64,000 bases of DNA from Polycladomyces abyssicola. GTDB taxonomy: Bacteria > Bacillota > Bacilli > Thermoactinomycetales > JIR-001. The notes beneath the pieces are model-generated. The model searched no databases. It saw only the letters and a program-made list of their open reading frames with translations, and was not told the DNA's origin. The position numbers were made by a program, and so were the translations under genes. Shown piece by piece: positions 11,518-32,249 of this stretch (the stretch's first letter is position 1; each line of letters starts with the position of its first letter). The stretch is taken from assembly GCF_018326425.1 (NCBI RefSeq), contig NZ_AP024601.1, forward strand, positions 1,414,001 to 1,478,000. Direction: 5' to 3'.

Positions 11518-13170
11518 GTGACCAAGCGGACATTTGATGACGCTTACCAGGAGTGGAAAGAGAAAACCGAATCTTCTTTGACAAAATTTCCGGAACGAAA
11601 GCAATCTTTCGTCACCCCTTCCGGAATTGAAGTGGATCGATTATATGTCGGTAACGCCGAAAACCCGTCAGATTGGGAACGGATCGGGTTTCCCGGCGAA
11701 TATCCGTATACCCGCGGTATCCGGCCGACCATGTATCGCGGTCGCCTCTGGACGATGCGCCAGTATGCGGGATTCGGTTCGGCGGAGGAGACCAACCGGC
11801 GTTTCCGTTATCTGTTGGAACAAGGTCAAACGGGATTGAGCGTCGCATTCGATCTGCCCACACAGATCGGGTACGACTCCGATGACCCCATGGCAAAAGG
11901 GGAAGTGGGCAAAGTCGGGGTGGCGATCGATTCGTTGGAAGATATGGAACGCTTGTTGGAAGGGATTCCCCTGGATCAGGTCAGCACCTCCATGACGATC
12001 AATGCACCGGCCAGCGTGTTGTTGGCGATGTACATCGCCGTCGGTGAGAAACAGGGTGTTCCTTCCCACCAGTTGCGAGGCACGATTCAAAACGACATCC
12101 TGAAGGAATACATTGCCCGTGGAACGTACATTTTTCCACCCCAACCGTCGATGCGGCTGATCACGGACGTCTTTGCCTATTGTGCGGAGCACGTGCCCAA
12201 ATGGAACACCATCAGTATCAGCGGATACCATATTCGGGAGGCAGGATCGACGGCCGTACAGGAGGTCGCATTTACGCTGGCCAACGGCATCGCCTATGTG
12301 GAAGCGGCGGTAAAAGCGGGGTTGGACGTGGATCAGTTCGCGCCGCGACTGTCGTTTTTCTTCAACGCGCACAATCACTTTTTCGAGGAAATTGCCAAGT
12401 TCCGCGCCGCGCGCCGTTTGTGGGCACGCATCATGCGCGAGCGATTCGGTGCCCGCGATCCTCGGTCGTGGCAACTGCGTTTTCACACGCAGACCGGCGG
12501 TTCCACATTGACCGCGCAACAACCGGACAACAACATCGTCCGTGTCACGTTGCAAGCGCTGGCGGCGGTGTTGGGCGGTACGCAAAGCCTGCACACCAAT
12601 GCGCGCGACGAAGCCTTGGCACTCCCGACAGAAGAATCGGCCCGGATCGCCCTCCGCACCCAGCAGATCATCGCCTATGAGAGCGGGGTGGCCGATACGG
12701 TCGATCCGTTGGGCGGTTCGTATTTTGTCGAGGCGCTGACAGACCGGATCGAAGAAGAAGCGGTTCGCTACATTCAAAAAATTGATGATTTGGGTGGCGC
12801 GGTGTCTGCAGTGGAGCAAGGGTACATGCAACGGGAAATCCACCGCGTCGCATTGGAGACGCAGCGCAGAATTGAGTCCGGGGAAGAAGTGGTGGTTGGT
12901 ATGAACCGTTTCCGATTGGAAGACGAACCCCAGCCGCCTTTGCATCGCGTCGATCCCGCTTTGGAGCGGAAACAGGTGGAACGGGTGCAGTCATTGCGTG
13001 CAAGACGGGACGGGCAACGCGTGCAAGAGACATTGGCCGCGTTGAAACGGGCGGCGGAAGGAACGGACAACCTGATGCCCCACATTCTCGCTTGTGTGAA
13101 GGCGTACGCTACGGTAGGGGAGATTTGCCATGCGTTGCGCGACGTGTTTGGCGAGTATCAACCGGTGTAA
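11518..13170 (+). CDS. mutB: Methylmalonyl-CoA mutase, catalytic (TIM-barrel) subunit
   Basis: The 550-residue substrate-binding subunit of a split adenosylcobalamin mutase. The fused B12 domain of ordinary MutB is absent and is encoded by the next gene. Substrate residues are informative: Tyr83 in TMRQYAGF and Arg201 in [14 protein letters not shown] are those of methylmalonyl-CoA mutase. Isobutyryl-CoA mutases have Phe and Gln there. The GTG start follows GGAGG with 8-bp spacing. With mce and mmdA it forms a propionyl-CoA to succinyl-CoA module, logically downstream of valine and isoleucine oxidation. Confidence 0.93.
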
Positions 13171-18644: not shown

Positions 18645-18655
18645 GGGAAGGAACA
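18645..18655. repeat. 11-bp target duplication, left copy
   Basis: GGGAAGGAACA lies immediately outside the left terminal repeat of the cassette and recurs exactly at 21243-21253. The 11-bp length fits IS231-type transposition (10-12 bp). Confidence 0.85.
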
Positions 18656-20292
18656 CATACCCATCAAGGTTAAGCTGATACAAAAAAGATGAATGGATAT
18701 TACTTTTATAAAAGTTTAATTTATACAGTAGTTGAATGTGCCGAACAAACCGGAGGGATTGTTTTTTTAATCAAGCAGCTTTGACGGTCTTTTTAGTATA
18801 ATCGTATACGACACCCAGAATATCAAAAACTGTTTTTTTCTCATAGCGGTGAGATTTTCGCCCATTCTTTTCTATTAAATAGAAGAGGCGAATCAGAATC
18901 TTTGATAACTCTTGGGTGTTTTCTTGTATCGACTGATGAATCAATAAAAAATAGCTTTGAATCATATAGAAGGCCTTGTATTCACTCAACTCTTTACGCT
19001 TCTTGCGAAGCAAGAGTTCTCTCATGCGAAACATGGTAGAAGAGCATAAGAAGATAGCGATCAGCTGACCATAGAGATAGCATCCCATTCGTTCATTTTT
19101 AATGTCTTTACAGTGATCGATCTTGAAAATCGATTTCCAAGTTTTAAACAGAATCTCGACCTGCCATCTCAGCGAGTATAGGTCATGAACTTGTTCCTTC
19201 GGAACAAGTTCCCAAGGGATGTTGGTGATATATGTATTGATTTCAGTCAAACGTTTGCTACGCTCTGAGTATGTCATTCCTTTTTTCTTCTCTTTATAGG
19301 CTTGGTCCTTTCTTCTTTTCTTGACTTGTTCTTCCGTTAGTCGATAGAGGATGACTCTAGCAGGTAGTTTCTTGTCCCTGCCGATATAAGCATTTGGAAT
19401 CTCCAGTGTTTCACCTGGTTGCATGTCATTCATGATCTCTTCTAAATCTAGTAGGATATATTCCGTTTGTTTCTTGATCGATCCATCTTTAAAATACTCG
19501 GGAGCTGGATTCTTTTTGTATATCTTGTTATTGAGCTTTAGACGGGACACATAGAAAACACCCCTTTGATCCATCTGATCCAGATCCACGAGTGAGAAGT
19601 ATCCTAAGTCACGGATACATAGGTCACCAGGTCTAAGAGTATCTAGGCAAGTTGTACCAAATGTTTTATCATTATTTTTTCCAGGTTCCACTTGAAGATT
19701 CAGAAACTGACCACTGTGTAACTCATATTCCAATTGAATTTTGACACCTGCTGTATGACCACAACCTCCTGCTCCTGGATAATCTTCCTTAAACGAATCT
19801 GGTATTTGAAAGGTCGTCGAATCAAGAATGCGGATACGCTGAAACAGTGATAAAAGCTTGCTTGAAATGGGGGTTATTGATCCTATTTCTGATTTCAACA
19901 AAAGAGTAAACAGGCTTTGAAGAAATTTCACTGCATGACTTTTGAAACGTTGATTGAGCCCTTCAGGGCTCATCAGTACTCCATTCGAAGCTTCTAGTTG
20001 ACTACATAGTTTGTTTAGGGAAGTGCTAGCAATATTTCGACTCACCCAAACACACAAAGTCACTAAGTCTATTGCACGGTATTTACTCTTCCTTTGAACG
20101 AATCCCTTTTCTTTTGCCAACTGCTCAAGAGCAGCTGATGATAAATGTTTTTGTAATTCTTCCGCAAATAGGTTTAGTTCATGTTGAATCGGAAGATTCA
20201 TTGCGAAACGCCATCCTTTCCTATATTCCTATAGAAAGAATAGCGTTTTTCTGATGTTAAGACTATTCTATTTTCTTGGCTTGATGGCGATG
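18656..20292 (-). mobile_element. IS4-family (IS231-like) insertion sequence
   Basis: A 1637-bp IS, the normal IS231 size, read from the right end at 20292. Its left end CATACCCATCAAG and right end CATCGCCATCAAG are inverted repeats with scattered mismatches. No direct repeat flanks this IS alone, which supports its being half of the larger cassette. Confidence 0.8.
18771..20201 (-). CDS. IS4-family (IS231-like) transposase
   Basis: Full-length DDE transposase of 476 residues. Catalytic residues: Asp127 in RILDSTTFQ, Asp198 in CIRDLGYFS and Glu349 within the IS4 signature Y-2-R-3-E-6-K (Tyr342, Arg345, Glu349, Lys356; [15 protein letters not shown]). A long Lys-rich insertion separates the second and third acidic residues, as in IS231. 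The frame is intact, so the element may still be active. Base composition is lower in GC than the neighbouring core genes. Confidence 0.95.
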
Positions 20293-20409
20293 GGGTATGG
20301 CAACCAAAAGCGAAATATAGGGCCAGATGCAAGGCAGCCCCTCAGCGTCTTCACTTTTCCTCTACTGGGATTATTGTCCCAGGATTCTGTTTATCGCCGT
20401 GAATTTATT

Positions 20410-20907
20410 TCAGGATTGTCCGTATGACCGCTTAGCCGGCCAAGATCCTTGAAGTTTGCAGATTTGTATGATTTGTCCGGTGTGATACGCATCGTGAAGA
20501 ATGAGACTGTATAACCACATGCCGACAGGGTGTTTCGAAACTTCGCGCTCCAAGTCGTAACTGCTGTACCCAGCAATGATGTTGCGAATCGATTGATGTA
20601 CGTCGTCCAGTTTCTTAACAGATTCTTCCCAAGCGGACGGTTCCACGGAAGTGACGGCAAATGTGTCGTCGTTTGTCAAGCCTTGAGGATACTCGGTTTC
20701 TTCACCCGTTAGAAACTTCAGGAACCATTCCTTGTAAAACGTCAAATGGCGAACGTTCTCCCAGATCGTATGGATCGGCGCGCCTTCAGGCTTCCAATTC
20801 GCTTGCTCCGCCGTAACGCCTTTGAGCGTATCGGCCAACGGCGGATACCAGTCTTCTTTGTCGTAACCAATTTCCCATCCGTGCAGTAAAAATGCTTTCT
20901 TGTCCAT
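20410..20907 (-). CDS. DinB-family protein (cassette passenger)
   Basis: A 165-residue four-helix DinB/YfiT-like protein. The metal-binding histidine triad is visible as HLTFYKEW near residue 54 and HDAYHTGQI near residue 138. Members are metal-dependent hydrolases or thiol transferases (bacillithiol or mycothiol S-transferases), mostly with unknown substrates. The start follows AGGAGG. It is the only complete gene between the IS and the right mini-element, so it moved with the cassette; a detoxification role is plausible but not shown. Confidence 0.88.
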   Translation of the reverse strand: MDKKAFLLHGWEIGYDKEDWYPPLADTLKGVTAEQANWKPEGAPIHTIWENVRHLTFYKEWFLKFLTGEETEYPQGLTNDDTFAVTSVEPSAWEESVKKLDDVHQSIRNIIAGYSSYDLEREVSKHPVGMWLYSLILHDAYHTGQIIQICKLQGSWPAKRSYGQS

Positions 20908-21123
20908 ACGATTCCTCCTGAAATAAAAATATGTAACGACTAAAAATTAAATTGATAGTTACAACATAGTATCACATGCGGCCAGAAGGAGTACCCACCG
21001 ATAAATGTACTCAGATATAGAAAAGTTTATGTCCTAAAATTACATGTATCTCCCCCGAACCCCTATAGAGGCTCAGAATAATTATTTTTGTTTTTTATCT
21101 AACTCCCGTGGTGGGGTAGTACC

Positions 21124-21242
21124 CATGCCCATCAAGCTAAGCAAAATGGATACCCCCAAAACGAGAAAATGAGCTTCTTTGTTACAAGAAAGCCCAAAAT
21201 TTCGTTCTGGGGGTACTATAAAACTTTAACTTGATAGGCATG
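21124..21242. mobile_element. 119-bp IS231-type mini-element (MITE) forming the right cassette end
   Basis: The left end CATGCCCATCAAGCTAAGC and the right end (reverse complement) CATGCCTATCAAGTTAAAG match, and the inverted similarity continues inward to TACCCCCA-AACGA, about 45 bp each side. There is no coding capacity. The left flank GGGTAGTACCC fits the IS231 target pattern GGG-N5-CCC, suggesting a separate insertion before the composite moved. Confidence 0.75.
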
Positions 21243-21253
21243 GGGAAGGAACA
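21243..21253. repeat. 11-bp target duplication, right copy
   Basis: Exact copy of the left flank GGGAAGGAACA, starting at the first base outside the right terminal repeat. Confidence 0.85.
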
Positions 21254-21326
21254 GCTTTCCCTGGCAAATAGAAACCGGCTCCTGATCATGGTTTGTCAGC
21301 AATTAGGCGGGTAATTCCCACTGGTC

Positions 21327-22037
21327 TTACACCCCGACGAAACCGCCGAACAGTTGAATCATCCAAACCGTGATCTTAGACATCAGGTTGAAGTACAACA
21401 ATACTCCCAATATGACCATCACACCTCCGCCTACTTTCATGATGCGTGCGGAGTGGCGCAGGATCCAACGTGTTCGGCCTAAGAAAAAAGCCATGACAAA
21501 AAACGGGATGGCAAAACCGAGCGTGTATGCAGTAATGTAACTCAGTCCCGCACTGGGGTTGGAGGCGGACAGCATCAACACGGAAGCGAAAATTGGCCCG
21601 ACGCACGGTGTCCAGCCGGCGGCGAAACCGATGCCAATCAACGTGGAACCGAGGTAGCCCATCCTGCGGCTCGAGATTTCCAGTCGTTTTTCCCGCATGA
21701 GAAAAGCGGGTTGAAACACTCCCATCAGGAACAAGCCCATCACCGCAATCAATACAGCACCCAGCATGCGGATGGTTTCTTTGTAATCCTCAAAAAACTG
21801 TCCAAGCCGAGTGGCTGAAAAACCAAGGGCGTAAAAAATGATGGAAAAGCCCAAGATGAAAAATAATGTGTGTGAGGCCACTGCCCGCCGAACATTGGCC
21901 GTCCGATTTTCTCTGAGTTCACTTACCGAGATTCCCGTGATGTAAGACAGATACGACGGATACAGCGGGAGACAGCATGGTGAGATGAACGACAGCGCTC
22001 CCGCGCCAAAAGCCAGCCACCAAGACAAATCCGACAT
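21327..22037 (-). CDS. ccdA: Cytochrome c biogenesis / thiol-disulfide membrane protein CcdA
   Basis: A 236-residue membrane protein with about six TM helices. The redox motif is in LSFISPCCLPLYPSYLSYITG and the second half carries GFAAGWTPCVGPIFASVL, so both electron-transfer cysteines are present. It moves reducing power from cytosolic thioredoxin to extracytoplasmic ResA-like proteins. It follows the thioredoxin-like gene by 4 bp with a GGAGGG site, forming a two-gene operon. Confidence 0.92.
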   Translation of the reverse strand: MSDLSWWLAFGAGALSFISPCCLPLYPSYLSYITGISVSELRENRTANVRRAVASHTLFFILGFSIIFYALGFSATRLGQFFEDYKETIRMLGAVLIAVMGLFLMGVFQPAFLMREKRLEISSRRMGYLGSTLIGIGFAAGWTPCVGPIFASVLMLSASNPSAGLSYITAYTLGFAIPFFVMAFFLGRTRWILRHSARIMKVGGGVMVILGVLLYFNLMSKITVWMIQLFGGFVGV

Positions 22038-22041
22038 TTTC

Positions 22042-22659
22042 TCATCCCTCCGGTCGGGTTAAAGAGTCCAGTACACGCTTCACTTCCTGCGAAGTGACGG
22101 GCCCTGTTTTCTTCCATACGATCACGCCTTTGGCGTCCACGATATAGGTTGTTGGGAGCCCCAAGGCAACATATTTTTCCGTCACTTCTCCCGTCTTGTC
22201 TTTCAGCACGGGAAAGGTCAACCCATATTGTTTGAGAAAGCCAGAAACATCGGCTTCACTGCCCTCCTGATACGTGGAATTCACGATAAAAAAGTCCACC
22301 CGATTCTTGTATTGCTGGTATATGGATTGCAACGTAGGCATTTCCTCTCGGCACGGTGGGCACCACGTCGCCCAAAAATTGATCAGGGCGGGTTTGCCGT
22401 TCCGCTTGGACAGGTCCATCTTATGTCCGTCCAAAGTTGGCAAAGCAAAGACGGGAGCGCGATCGCCTTTTTGCAAACCTGGCTCCTCCTGGGCGGGCGT
22501 TTGATTTATCTTTGGCTTCTGTACTTGCGTCGAGGACGATGCTTGCGCCGACTGATCGGAACGATCCTTTTTCCCGCCGTGCCAGAAGGCCCCGATCAGC
22601 GCGGCGACGATCACAAGCCCGATCACTCCGTTTTTCCAAGCGTTCGTTTGCCGAGACAT
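22042..22659 (-). CDS. Membrane-anchored thiol-disulfide oxidoreductase (ResA/TlpA-like)
   Basis: A 205-residue protein: N-terminal anchor (GVIGLVIVAALIGAFWH), a Gln/Ser-rich linker, then an AhpC/TSA-thioredoxin domain with active site FWATWCPPCREEMPT and the cis-Pro loop GLPTTYIVD. It reduces disulfides in apocytochrome c or another exported substrate, with electrons from CcdA. The ATG at 22659 is 7 bp after AGGAGG; an ATG 21 bp upstream overlaps that site. Whether it is ResA (cytochromes) or StoA (spore cortex) cannot be told from sequence alone. Confidence 0.88.
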   Translation of the reverse strand: MSRQTNAWKNGVIGLVIVAALIGAFWHGGKKDRSDQSAQASSSTQVQKPKINQTPAQEEPGLQKGDRAPVFALPTLDGHKMDLSKRNGKPALINFWATWCPPCREEMPTLQSIYQQYKNRVDFFIVNSTYQEGSEADVSGFLKQYGLTFPVLKDKTGEVTEKYVALGLPTTYIVDAKGVIVWKKTGPVTSQEVKRVLDSLTRPEG

Positions 22660-22771: not shown

Positions 22772-23174
22772 TTAAAAATCGATCATTTTATCCTTGGCGG
22801 TCATCTTACCAGCCATAGTCCGTTCAGCGATAAAAGTCCGCTCCATCTCCGCAAACAGCCCCAGTATGGTGACCATTGCTTTGGTCATAATGTCGTTACT
22901 CAGTCGAGTATCGATCCCATGACAAAGACTGACTAGATGAATTTCCCAATCTTGAAATAACTCATATGTGCATACCACGTCCGTAATGGATCGAGACAAC
23001 GACGGTATCCCCCGGCTGTATCAGATCCATCAGCCGGCGAAACTCGGAGCGGTCCGTAATGTTCTTGCCGGATGCTTTCTCTCGGAATAGTTCATCTACC
23101 CCGAACCTTTCTAACTCCTTTATCTGAATTTCCAAGTCCTGATGCACCGCGGACACCCGTGTGTATCCATACAC
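22772..23174 (-). pseudogene. Serine recombinase (resolvase/invertase) remnant
   Basis: The N-terminal catalytic domain is recognisable: VYGYTRVSAVHQDLEIQIKEL (with the serine nucleophile) and DRSEFRRLMDLIQPGDTVVV. Near 22990 a short deletion removes the expected SLDR segment and shifts the frame; the second frame continues RSITDVVCTYELFQ and GLFAEMERTFIAERT. The C-terminal DNA-binding domain is missing. The gene is inactive. Confidence 0.85.
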
Positions 23175-23534
23175 TTTTTCTGATGTTTTTACCGAAATGT
23201 CCCGACCCGTTCTCTTGTCGGTGTAATGTGTTCTTTGATCGCGATGTGGATGATCTTTTTGATTGAGGGTTTGGGTGCCATTTTGACCAAGGTGATGGAG
23301 ACTCCCCGATTCCTTCGGGTACAATCTCTTTTTCCACCAGGAATGAAAGGGCGAACCCGTTCCAGCCCTGGGCCAAAGTGCCGACAAGTAGGATAGGAGA
23401 TGGTGAGAATGAGATCGGATACAGGGACACACGATCCGTTTGAAAAGAGACCTGTAAAACTGTTTTCACTTCATCCGTATCCTTTTGGCGATTTGAATCG
23501 TTTATATGGTGTCAAAGGAAAGGAGGGCGATCAA

Positions 23535-30743: not shown

Positions 30744-31973
30744 TCAAAAACGATCGTTTTTTGAGACTTCCCAACAGAGCCCCTTGTTGAAAGGAGCCAG
30801 TACCCTCAGTAAACCACCGGAAACATCTTCAGTCCTCGCATCCAAAAAGCTGGATCGCCACTCAAGCTGTTTTCGTGGCACGCCAAGCGCAAGACCGGGA
30901 ATGCGCTTTATAAGGGTGGAAATGGCGATTTTTGCTTCCAATCGGGCAAGCGGAGCCCCAAGGCAATAGTGGATGCCATAACCGAACCCGATATGGGGAT
31001 TATGCTTGCGGGTGATGTCCAAACGGTTCGGATCGGCAAATTGTCTCGGATCCCGGTTAGCCGAAGCGAGTGCCACAAGCACCATATCGCCCCTTTTGAT
31101 TGTCTGGCCATGCATGGTGACCTCTTTACCCGCAAAACGGTTGGTGGCAAATTCGACCGGACTGTAATAACGCAAAAATTCCTCCACCGCCGATGGCATC
31201 CATTCAGGGTGATTTTTGAGAAGCTCCAATTGCTCAGGATTTTCGAACAAGGCCAACACGCCGTTTCCGATCAGGTTCACCGTTGTTTCATGGCCGGCGA
31301 CGATCAGCAGGAAAATCATGGCATACAACTCTTTTTCCGTCAACTTCTCCCCTTCGGCTTCCGCATGCACAAGGCCCGAAATCAAATCTTCCGCCGGGTA
31401 TCGCCGGCGATTTTCGATCAAATCACTTAAGTACGCTACAAACTCTTTGATCTGTGGAACCGCTTGCCGCATCTTTTCCGGATGGTTGGAAGCATCCACG
31501 ATAGCATTGGACCAATCACGGAACTTCATGCGGTCATCAAGTGGAATTCCCAACATGTCACTGATGACGATAATCGGAAGCGGAAGGCATAATTATGGAT
31601 CAAATCCATACGCCCCGCCTCTAGCACCCGATCCAAAAGTTCATCCGCAATGGCTTGGATCCGGTCAGCCGCGCAATCGCGTATGATCTGGCGGGTCCAT
31701 CGCCAACATATGGTGAAGCAACAATTCTATCTCCGGGGCAGCAATCAACTGCGAAAATCGCTCTTCCCCCAGCACGGTGCGACCTCGATTCAGAAAACGA
31801 GGATCCTTCAACACATTCACTGCATCTTCGTAACGAGTGATAATCCAGCCATCCAGCCCGTTTGGCATCCTTATCCGGTAAACCGGAGCGTTTTCGCGTA
31901 ATTCCTCATACAACGAGTAGGCAAAATCTTTGTAATCCGGCGCAAACAAATCAAAGTTGAATTGTTTGTCCAT
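30744..31973 (-). pseudogene. Cytochrome P450 with at least two frame disruptions
   Basis: Start at 31973 after GGAGG; the N-terminal part reads DKQFNFDLFAPDYKDFAYSL and MDPPDHTRLRG. A stop and deletion then remove the segment normally containing AFTPR. Coding resumes in another frame (ADRIQAIADELLDRVLEAG) and shifts again near 31590 into IIVISDMLGIPLDDRM. The remainder is intact: I-helix AGHETT, EFLRY (ExxR) and the heme loop FGYGIHYCLGAPLARLE. It resembles the CYP107/CYP109 type. Not functional unless the disruptions are sequence errors. The 3' end forms part of a repeat also found at 41278-41323. Confidence 0.88.
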
Positions 31974-32249
31974 GAATGGTCCTCCATTTCTTAGTCTCCC
32001 CTCATTTATACCCGTTTCCCAATTCATTAATCAATGAATTTTTTGTTAATTAAGAACGAAAACTCACGGGCTTTAGTCTCAATAGTGCCCGGCTTTTATG
32101 CTGGGTTCTTTTCTGTCCTCTATCGCCAAAATAGCCTATCTCATCACCGTGGGAGGCCTACCCCACGGGATATAAATATATTTTCTAACACAAACAAAAT
32201 ATTTCGAGATTAATAGAATATATCACCAAAGATTGGAAGTAAGGATTCT

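Follow-up and report, generated by a model that had tools for sequence, protein, structure and literature searches.

A DinB-family gene of Polycladomyces abyssicola lies between a complete insertion sequence (IS) and a 119-bp mini-element that shares its type of ends, raising the question of whether these three parts came together at this locus or arrived there as one mobile unit. The locus is part of a stretch of 64,000 nucleotides of contig NZ_AP024601.1, here called the window, in which an IS231-type IS, a DinB_2 gene and the mini-element make up a unit of 2,587 bp (18656-21242; Table 1).

Table 1. Features of the unit and its flanks in the window, followed by four further units of the same layout
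Feature	Location	Strand	Remarks
Left target duplication GGGAAGGAACA, 11 bp	18645..18655	+	Also single and element-free in congener G001 at L012:8028-8038
IS231-type IS, 1,637 bp	18656..20292	-	Transposase-3' end outermost; basis: ends and inner flank, repeat-flanked plain ISs in relatives
Transposase, 476 aa, intact ORF	18771..20201	-	Pfam DDE_Tnp_1 1.8e-40; NCBIfam NF033592 (transpos_IS4_1) 332.6 bits, cut-off 115
Junction DNA	20293..20409	.	First ~40 bp match a Tn3-family transposon terminal inverted repeat (comparison with L066)
Cargo gene, 165 aa, DinB_2 superfamily	20410..20907	-	Pfam DinB_2 4.3e-13
Segment preceding mini-element	21028..21123	.	No match to Shimazuella IS-DinB copies
119-bp mini-element	21124..21242	.	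Two IS231-type ends, long internal inverted repeat
Right copy of GGGAAGGAACA	21243..21253	+	Directly outside right outer end
24-bp native-locus remnant	21254..21277	+	23/24 with G001, around L012:8773-8796
Further unit, 3,857 bp	L063, G027		119-bp mini-element; HipA-like kinase; decayed transposase
Further unit, 4,424 bp	L072/L050, S. kribbensis		132-bp mini-element; UbiE-type methyltransferase; repeat 10/11
Further unit, 4,573 bp	L185, G190		118-bp mini-element; TetR regulator and 618-aa reductase/hydrolase-type protein
Further unit, 5,964 bp	L212, Peribacillus sp. R9-11 plasmid pB, NZ_CP133765.1		131-bp mini-element; two beta-lactamase-fold proteins; perfect repeat

IS231 elements are described as having ends of the form CAT-------AA--TAA, target repeats of 10-12 bp and lengths of 1,450-5,400 bp (excerpt of PMC2266710). 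The target duplication is 11 bp in the window and 10-11 bp in relatives. The transposase, a single ORF, contains D127, D198, E349 and a YREK signature at 342, which are IS4-family motifs in the pattern D(60-110)D(100-150)E plus Y(2)R(3)E(6)K. We assigned the IS to the IS231 subgroup by its motifs, single ORF and repeat length, comparing named IS231 elements by their published description; the plasmid relatives among the matches listed are annotated as IS4 family or carry no annotation. The left outer end, at 18656, is CATACCCATCAAGGTTAAG, and the right outer end, finishing at 21242, is the reverse complement of CATGCCTATCAAGTTAAAG. GGGTATGGCAA adjoins the inner end of the IS (20292) on the outside of the IS, and GGGGTAGTACC precedes the inner end of the mini-element (21124). 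The outer right end and the inner end of the mini-element agree with the end consensus. Of the other two, the outer left end contains an additional G, and the IS inner end departs from the consensus by a C in place of T at position 15.

The mini-element has a strong predicted fold (z -4.7, with none of 200 shuffles as good). Judged by eye, one type of end in its family resembles the transposase-5' end of ISs of this group and the other the 3' end, which suggests that the mini-element originated as an internally deleted IS. The IS and the mini-element have one match each in the window's genome, where no other copy of the unit was found; a further 18-mer resembling an end, with a single mismatch, is located at G000:C1:2561602 of this genome.

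The earlier note had read the outer ends (18656 and 21242) as bounded by a perfect 11-bp direct repeat that the inner ends lack, and both the positions and the repeat bear this out. The two outer flanks match at 11 of 11 positions (GGGAAGGAACA); the flanks of the IS alone match at 6/11, those of the mini-element alone at 6/11, and the two inner flanks at 4/11. A third GGGAAGGAACA lies on the other strand of the window, at 12057. When we drew 200,000 random pairs from the 1,120 GGG-starting 11-mers of the window, a full 11/11 match occurred at a rate of only 4.5e-5, and the repeat is thus not due to target preference.

We compared the locus with the two other genomes of the genus sample (three genomes in all, with one strain for the window's species). 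One congener, G001, carries the whole unit at another place (L011:1689-4277), as had been suggested might be found, with 99.4% identity by BLAST against 92.3% for the backbone over 13.7 kb; the mini-element is identical at 119/119 bp and the cargo segment at 826/831 bp. The G in the left outer end of the window copy is extra relative to the G001 copy. The latter has no left repeat, as a flanking gene runs directly into ACCCATC, and the first 3 bp of the element (CAT) seem to have been lost by deletion together with the left flank.

At the site where the unit lies in the window, G001 has a single GGGAAGGAACA and no element, the sequence reading ...GGGGGAAGGAACA and then continuing into a GNAT gene (Pfam). 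The second congener, G002, also lacks the element and has the MFS gene followed by matching acetyltransferase sequence (by eye). On the other side, the right GGGAAGGAACA of the window is directly adjoined by sequence that in G001 is found 734 bp farther along, past the GNAT gene, and none of 100 shuffles reached the 23/24 agreement of this 24-bp stretch. The intervening GNAT stretch of G001 has no match anywhere in the window's genome, and the sequence missing from the window on the GNAT side begins exactly at the right repeat. From 21254 to 46980 the window holds 25.7 kb that is missing here from G001 and G002, and the genomes rejoin at ~46981. The site was therefore remodelled on its right side, either before or after the insertion. 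A full empty site would lack the element and show one GGGAAGGAACA joined directly to GCTTTCCC or to the GNAT side; of this site, which the earlier note had proposed to look for in related genomes, the left half is kept in G001 (single GGGAAGGAACA, no element) but the right half is not preserved.

The three genus genomes contain neither the IS alone nor the mini-element alone with the same flanks, and the partial IS or mini-element matches in G001 (C31, C5) and G002 (C11) have no GGGAAGGAACA nearby. In G001 and G002 the MFS gene has no DinB neighbour. Because the repeat is found at the outer ends only, because G001 has a copy elsewhere and because the site is without the element in a congener (element and DinB being absent there from both), we conclude that IS, DinB gene and mini-element moved as a unit, as had been claimed.

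Arrival of the unit by homologous recombination or within a 28-kb strain-specific region, the outer repeat being a product of chance or target bias, is improbable. A 28-kb stretch missing here from G001 and G002 does have the unit at its left border, but GGG-starting 11-mers match fully at only the rate given above, the left repeat is part of the native MFS flank in G001, and native sequence (24 bp) stands directly after the right repeat.

Three observations concern the region to the right of the unit. A paralogous pair of the ccdA and redoxin genes (window 21329-22652), 76-77% identical to them, is present in the window's genome and in the two congeners. At 22772-23432 a serine resolvase domain is seemingly split across two overlapping frames, with a Pfam match in each. 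Two neighbouring minus-strand ORFs at 30744-32027 resemble pieces of one broken cytochrome P450 gene; only the downstream ORF matches the P450 model, from profile position 201 on, and the upstream one was judged by eye.

Among 398 Bacilli genomes we found six close copies of this DinB gene (88-100% aa identity; next best, 51%), five of which adjoin IS231-type DNA, namely those of the window, G001, G032, G033 and G034; the sixth, in G022, has no adjoining IS231 match. G032, G033 and G034 belong to one genus, G033 being inferred to be Shimazuella kribbensis and G034 Shimazuella soli. All three have the IS-DinB junction in common, well preserved in G033 and decayed in G032 and G034, and on the far side of DinB they have an inverted fragment of a second IS and no mini-element (by BLAST in G033 and G032, by eye in G034). 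Since these copies have the junction without the mini-element, DinB would have adjoined this IS before the mini-element arrived. The earlier note's proposal of cargo capture by an IS and a miniature inverted-repeat element (MITE) therefore stands in that a unit including DinB moved, but IS and mini-element did not acquire DinB in one step. The cargo is a gene of stress type. NCBIfam gave it no name at E 0.01, and a sequence search of solved structures returned none at E 0.01. Its dN/dS is 0.11-0.48 between diverged copies, from which the gene seems to have been retained; the value of 0.79 for the nearest pair, G000-G001, comes from very few changes and is uninformative.

Still less probable than recombination is that the IS and the mini-element inserted separately, the outer repeat reflecting re-use of one target site, and that DinB entered between them later. 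Neighbouring elements with a single 11-bp spacer between them do occur (L143, 4951/4963; L144; L209, 6542/6554), so insertion next to a resident element is a known event for these ISs and their relatives. Against this account, neither inner flank of the window's unit is related to GGGAAGGAACA, the IS-DinB junction is common to S. kribbensis and so was not formed at the window's locus, and G001 has the whole unit elsewhere with an identical mini-element. Double landing in a single target, of the kind found next to L143 and L144, was likewise considered as a source of the repeat and rejected for the window, whose inner flanks do not match.

The layout is not confined to this genus. Four further units from outside it (Table 1) consist of an IS, unrelated cargo and a mini-element of 118-132 bp, with outer repeats matching at 11, 10, 11 and 11 of 11 positions, and the claim that such a layout is a path of cargo capture gains from this recurrence. 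Across the five units, flanks paired for the IS alone or the mini-element alone match at 3 to 7 of 11 positions, and outer flanks at 10 or 11. The transposase 5' side is turned towards the cargo in 5/5 units, in the window towards DinB, and no cargo similarity was detected in any of the 10 pairs of units.

We surveyed IS231-type end pairs for repeats of 10-12 bp with at most one mismatch and found them in 10 of 53 distinct pairs, nine of them perfect; each of four offset controls gave 0/53. Together with four elements from 20 later loci (where the two-mismatch pairs L187 and L188 were left out of the count) and five from plasmids, there are 19 repeat-flanked elements, comprising 1 solo mini-element, 8 plain ISs, 1 transposase-less cassette (L143) and 9 transposase-bearing elements with cargo; the loci were picked for holding relatives, and these counts are not frequencies. 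Five of the nine cargo elements include a mini-element. The remaining four (L145, L153, L146 and L214) lack a mini-element, as judged by the absence of any facing pair of ends spaced 90-160 bp, so the mini-element route is not the sole route to cargo. Both kinds of terminal element are also found on their own: plain ISs of the group have their own 10-11-bp repeats in relatives, and at L087 a stand-alone 135-bp relative of the mini-element has its own perfect 11-bp repeat, as would be left by a family that moves alone.

On plasmids, one place each was examined in 8 of 26 matching records (41 places in all). L208, L210 and L213 each hold a plain IS flanked by a perfect repeat. L209 and L215 have a mini-element (109 bp and 107 bp), cargo and an IS with repeats of only 9/11 and 8/11, and the layout can accordingly arise or persist without visible movement of a unit. 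At L211 ends 3.7 kb apart surround cargo, with flanks matching at 6/11. L214:2739-6546 has cargo, a perfect outer repeat and no mini-element, and the inner flank of its IS reads as that repeat in reverse complement, which looks like the trace of an inversion of part of the unit.

The survey also turned up elements of other composition. L145:2747-9129 is a repeat-flanked element of the IS231 type, 6.4 kb long, whose transposase is decayed; its cargo consists of a LysR regulator, an MFS transporter and part of a Tn3 transposase. The repeat-flanked element L143:2493-4951, with IS231-type ends and no transposase match, has a DUF2239 protein and an alpha/beta hydrolase as cargo, and 11 bp past it a further IS231-type end begins. 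A plasmid record named Klebsiella grimontii (CP079755.1) has five matches to the Bacilli-type transposase, the best at 68%, and may be mislabelled or contaminated.

That the unit is an ordinary passenger-carrying modular IS231, its inner ends being accidental resemblances and not relics of two elements, agrees with the existence of cargo elements without a mini-element (L145, L153, L146, L214) and with published passenger DNA of the IS231 subgroup lying upstream of the transposase gene, inside the TIR on that side, which is the DinB side here (excerpt of PMC2266710), but is the least credible account of all, as 21124-21242 has two full ends and 78% identity to a stand-alone mini-element (L202), another stand-alone mini-element (L087) has its own repeat, and the mini-element recurs in five of the nine repeat-flanked, transposase-bearing cargo elements.

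The two-element structure was assembled more than once. For the L072 mini-element, identity is 91% to a solo copy of the same genome (L074), 89% to one in a same-genus genome and 58% to the mini-element of the window, so that at least two separate assemblies are needed, and probably more. The closest relative of the L212 mini-element is a solo copy in another genome (76%), and that of the window's mini-element is the solo copy L202 in G190 (78%); the shuffled baseline is 29%. The mini-elements of the window, L063 and L185 are 62-68% alike, and these three units may have a common origin with swapped cargo. A single ancestral composite with swapped cargo for all five units is not favoured, since the L072 mini-element is nearer to L074 in its own genome.

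How the IS came to lie beside DinB is suggested by the junction DNA. The ~40 bp next to the IS inner end (within window 20293-20340) correspond to the terminal repeat found in a Tn3-family element of S. soli (L066:6943-16489), which has a Tn3 transposase and a resolvase between inverted ends. Among the 19 repeat-flanked elements, 5 rejoined targets fit a Tn3-terminus signature, compared with 23 of 1,109 GGGG positions (binomial 3.5e-5), in an exploratory comparison whose signature was picked after the sites had been viewed. The window's own target does not fit the signature. IS231-type insertions in Tn3-like termini are found at, for example, L212, L181, L208, L213 and L214.

We hold it very probable that the unit is a composite transposon with unequal terminal elements, a full IS231-type IS and its 119-bp internally deleted relative, that was excised and inserted whole by the IS transposase. 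That a composite bounded by a full element and a miniature one moved as a unit is well supported, and the claim that the last transposition used one end of each element agrees with the repeat at the outer ends only and with the G001 copy elsewhere. The IS transposase would most likely have bound the IS at its tnp-distal end (18656) and the mini-element at its outer end (21242), bypassing both inner ends; the whole segment would then have been excised and inserted downstream of the MFS gene with duplication of 11 bp, presumably by cut-and-paste through the element's own transposase. As to the earlier steps, the mini-element may have arisen by internal deletion of an IS, the IS-DinB link may have formed when an IS inserted at a Tn3-type end beside DinB, and the mini-element may have come later as the second end.

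The five repeat-flanked examples support the view that this layout is a recurrent route of gene uptake for IS231-type elements. With unrelated cargo in each, they are a likely intermediate between plain ISs and the passenger-carrying IS231 and MIC elements, and we propose such units as precursors of both. A broader model, to which we give somewhat less than even weight, is that IS231-group elements of Bacilli habitually acquire genes by means of two parts, an IS whose transposase 5' side points to the cargo and, on the far side, a mini-element of 118-132 bp. Such kits would have been assembled several times independently; if the inner ends and later the transposase were lost, the known passenger IS231s and MICs would result, and common landing on Tn3 termini may unite the parts. 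A gene-carrying transposon can have a non-coding relic of 119 bp for its other half, and searches for composite transposons that require two full ISs will therefore overlook such units.

Tn5 and Tn10 use their outer ends, as the window unit most likely does. These IS4-family composites likewise carry cargo between two related elements (excerpt of PMC2266710) but, unlike them, the window unit has as one terminal element 119 bp of non-coding DNA and not a second IS. The window's IS and mini-element share their end type; own repeats, the mark of the separate movement that the elements of a composite transposon should be capable of, were seen in relatives, for plain ISs of the group and for one solo mini-element. 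The mini-element is a candidate IS231-related MITE by its shortness, inverted ends and strong fold; an own repeat is present in a relative (L087) and not in the window copy. With the IS231 subgroup of the IS4 family the unit has in common the transposase motifs, the single ORF, an end type that agrees with the consensus at two of its four ends, the 10-12-bp repeat, the size range and cargo upstream of the transposase gene (excerpt of PMC2266710). It differs from passenger-carrying IS231s in that both inner ends survive and the passenger is visibly bounded by an IS and a mini-element, and its Bacilli genus is not among the hosts named in that excerpt.

MIC231, a relative of IS231 mobilised in trans by the IS231 transposase, likewise has IS231-type ends around foreign cargo, but MICs have no transposase gene and move in trans, whereas the window unit has an intact transposase ORF of 476 aa (excerpt of PMC1196294); L143, in a relative, is MIC-like. 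TIME-COMP, a composite of two Tn3-derived MITEs, also has miniature elements as the termini of a unit that encloses cargo and duplicates its target, but its MITEs are both of the Tn3 family and its core has no transposition gene, in contrast to the IS231-type mini-element and full IS found here (excerpt of PMC4133298). The MITEAba12 paper describes composite structures bounded by two ISs or by two MITEs (excerpt of PMC6382973). In transposable modules (TMos) a single IS moves adjacent DNA (excerpt of PMC3281130), which the window unit resembles except that its far end is a recognisable, two-ended mini-element. Titles and abstract openings of the open-access literature, among the matches listed, contained no report of a composite of one IS and one MITE, nor did the available parts of PMC2266710, PMC1196294, PMC4133298, PMC6382973, PMC6542083, PMC10969869 and PMC3281130.
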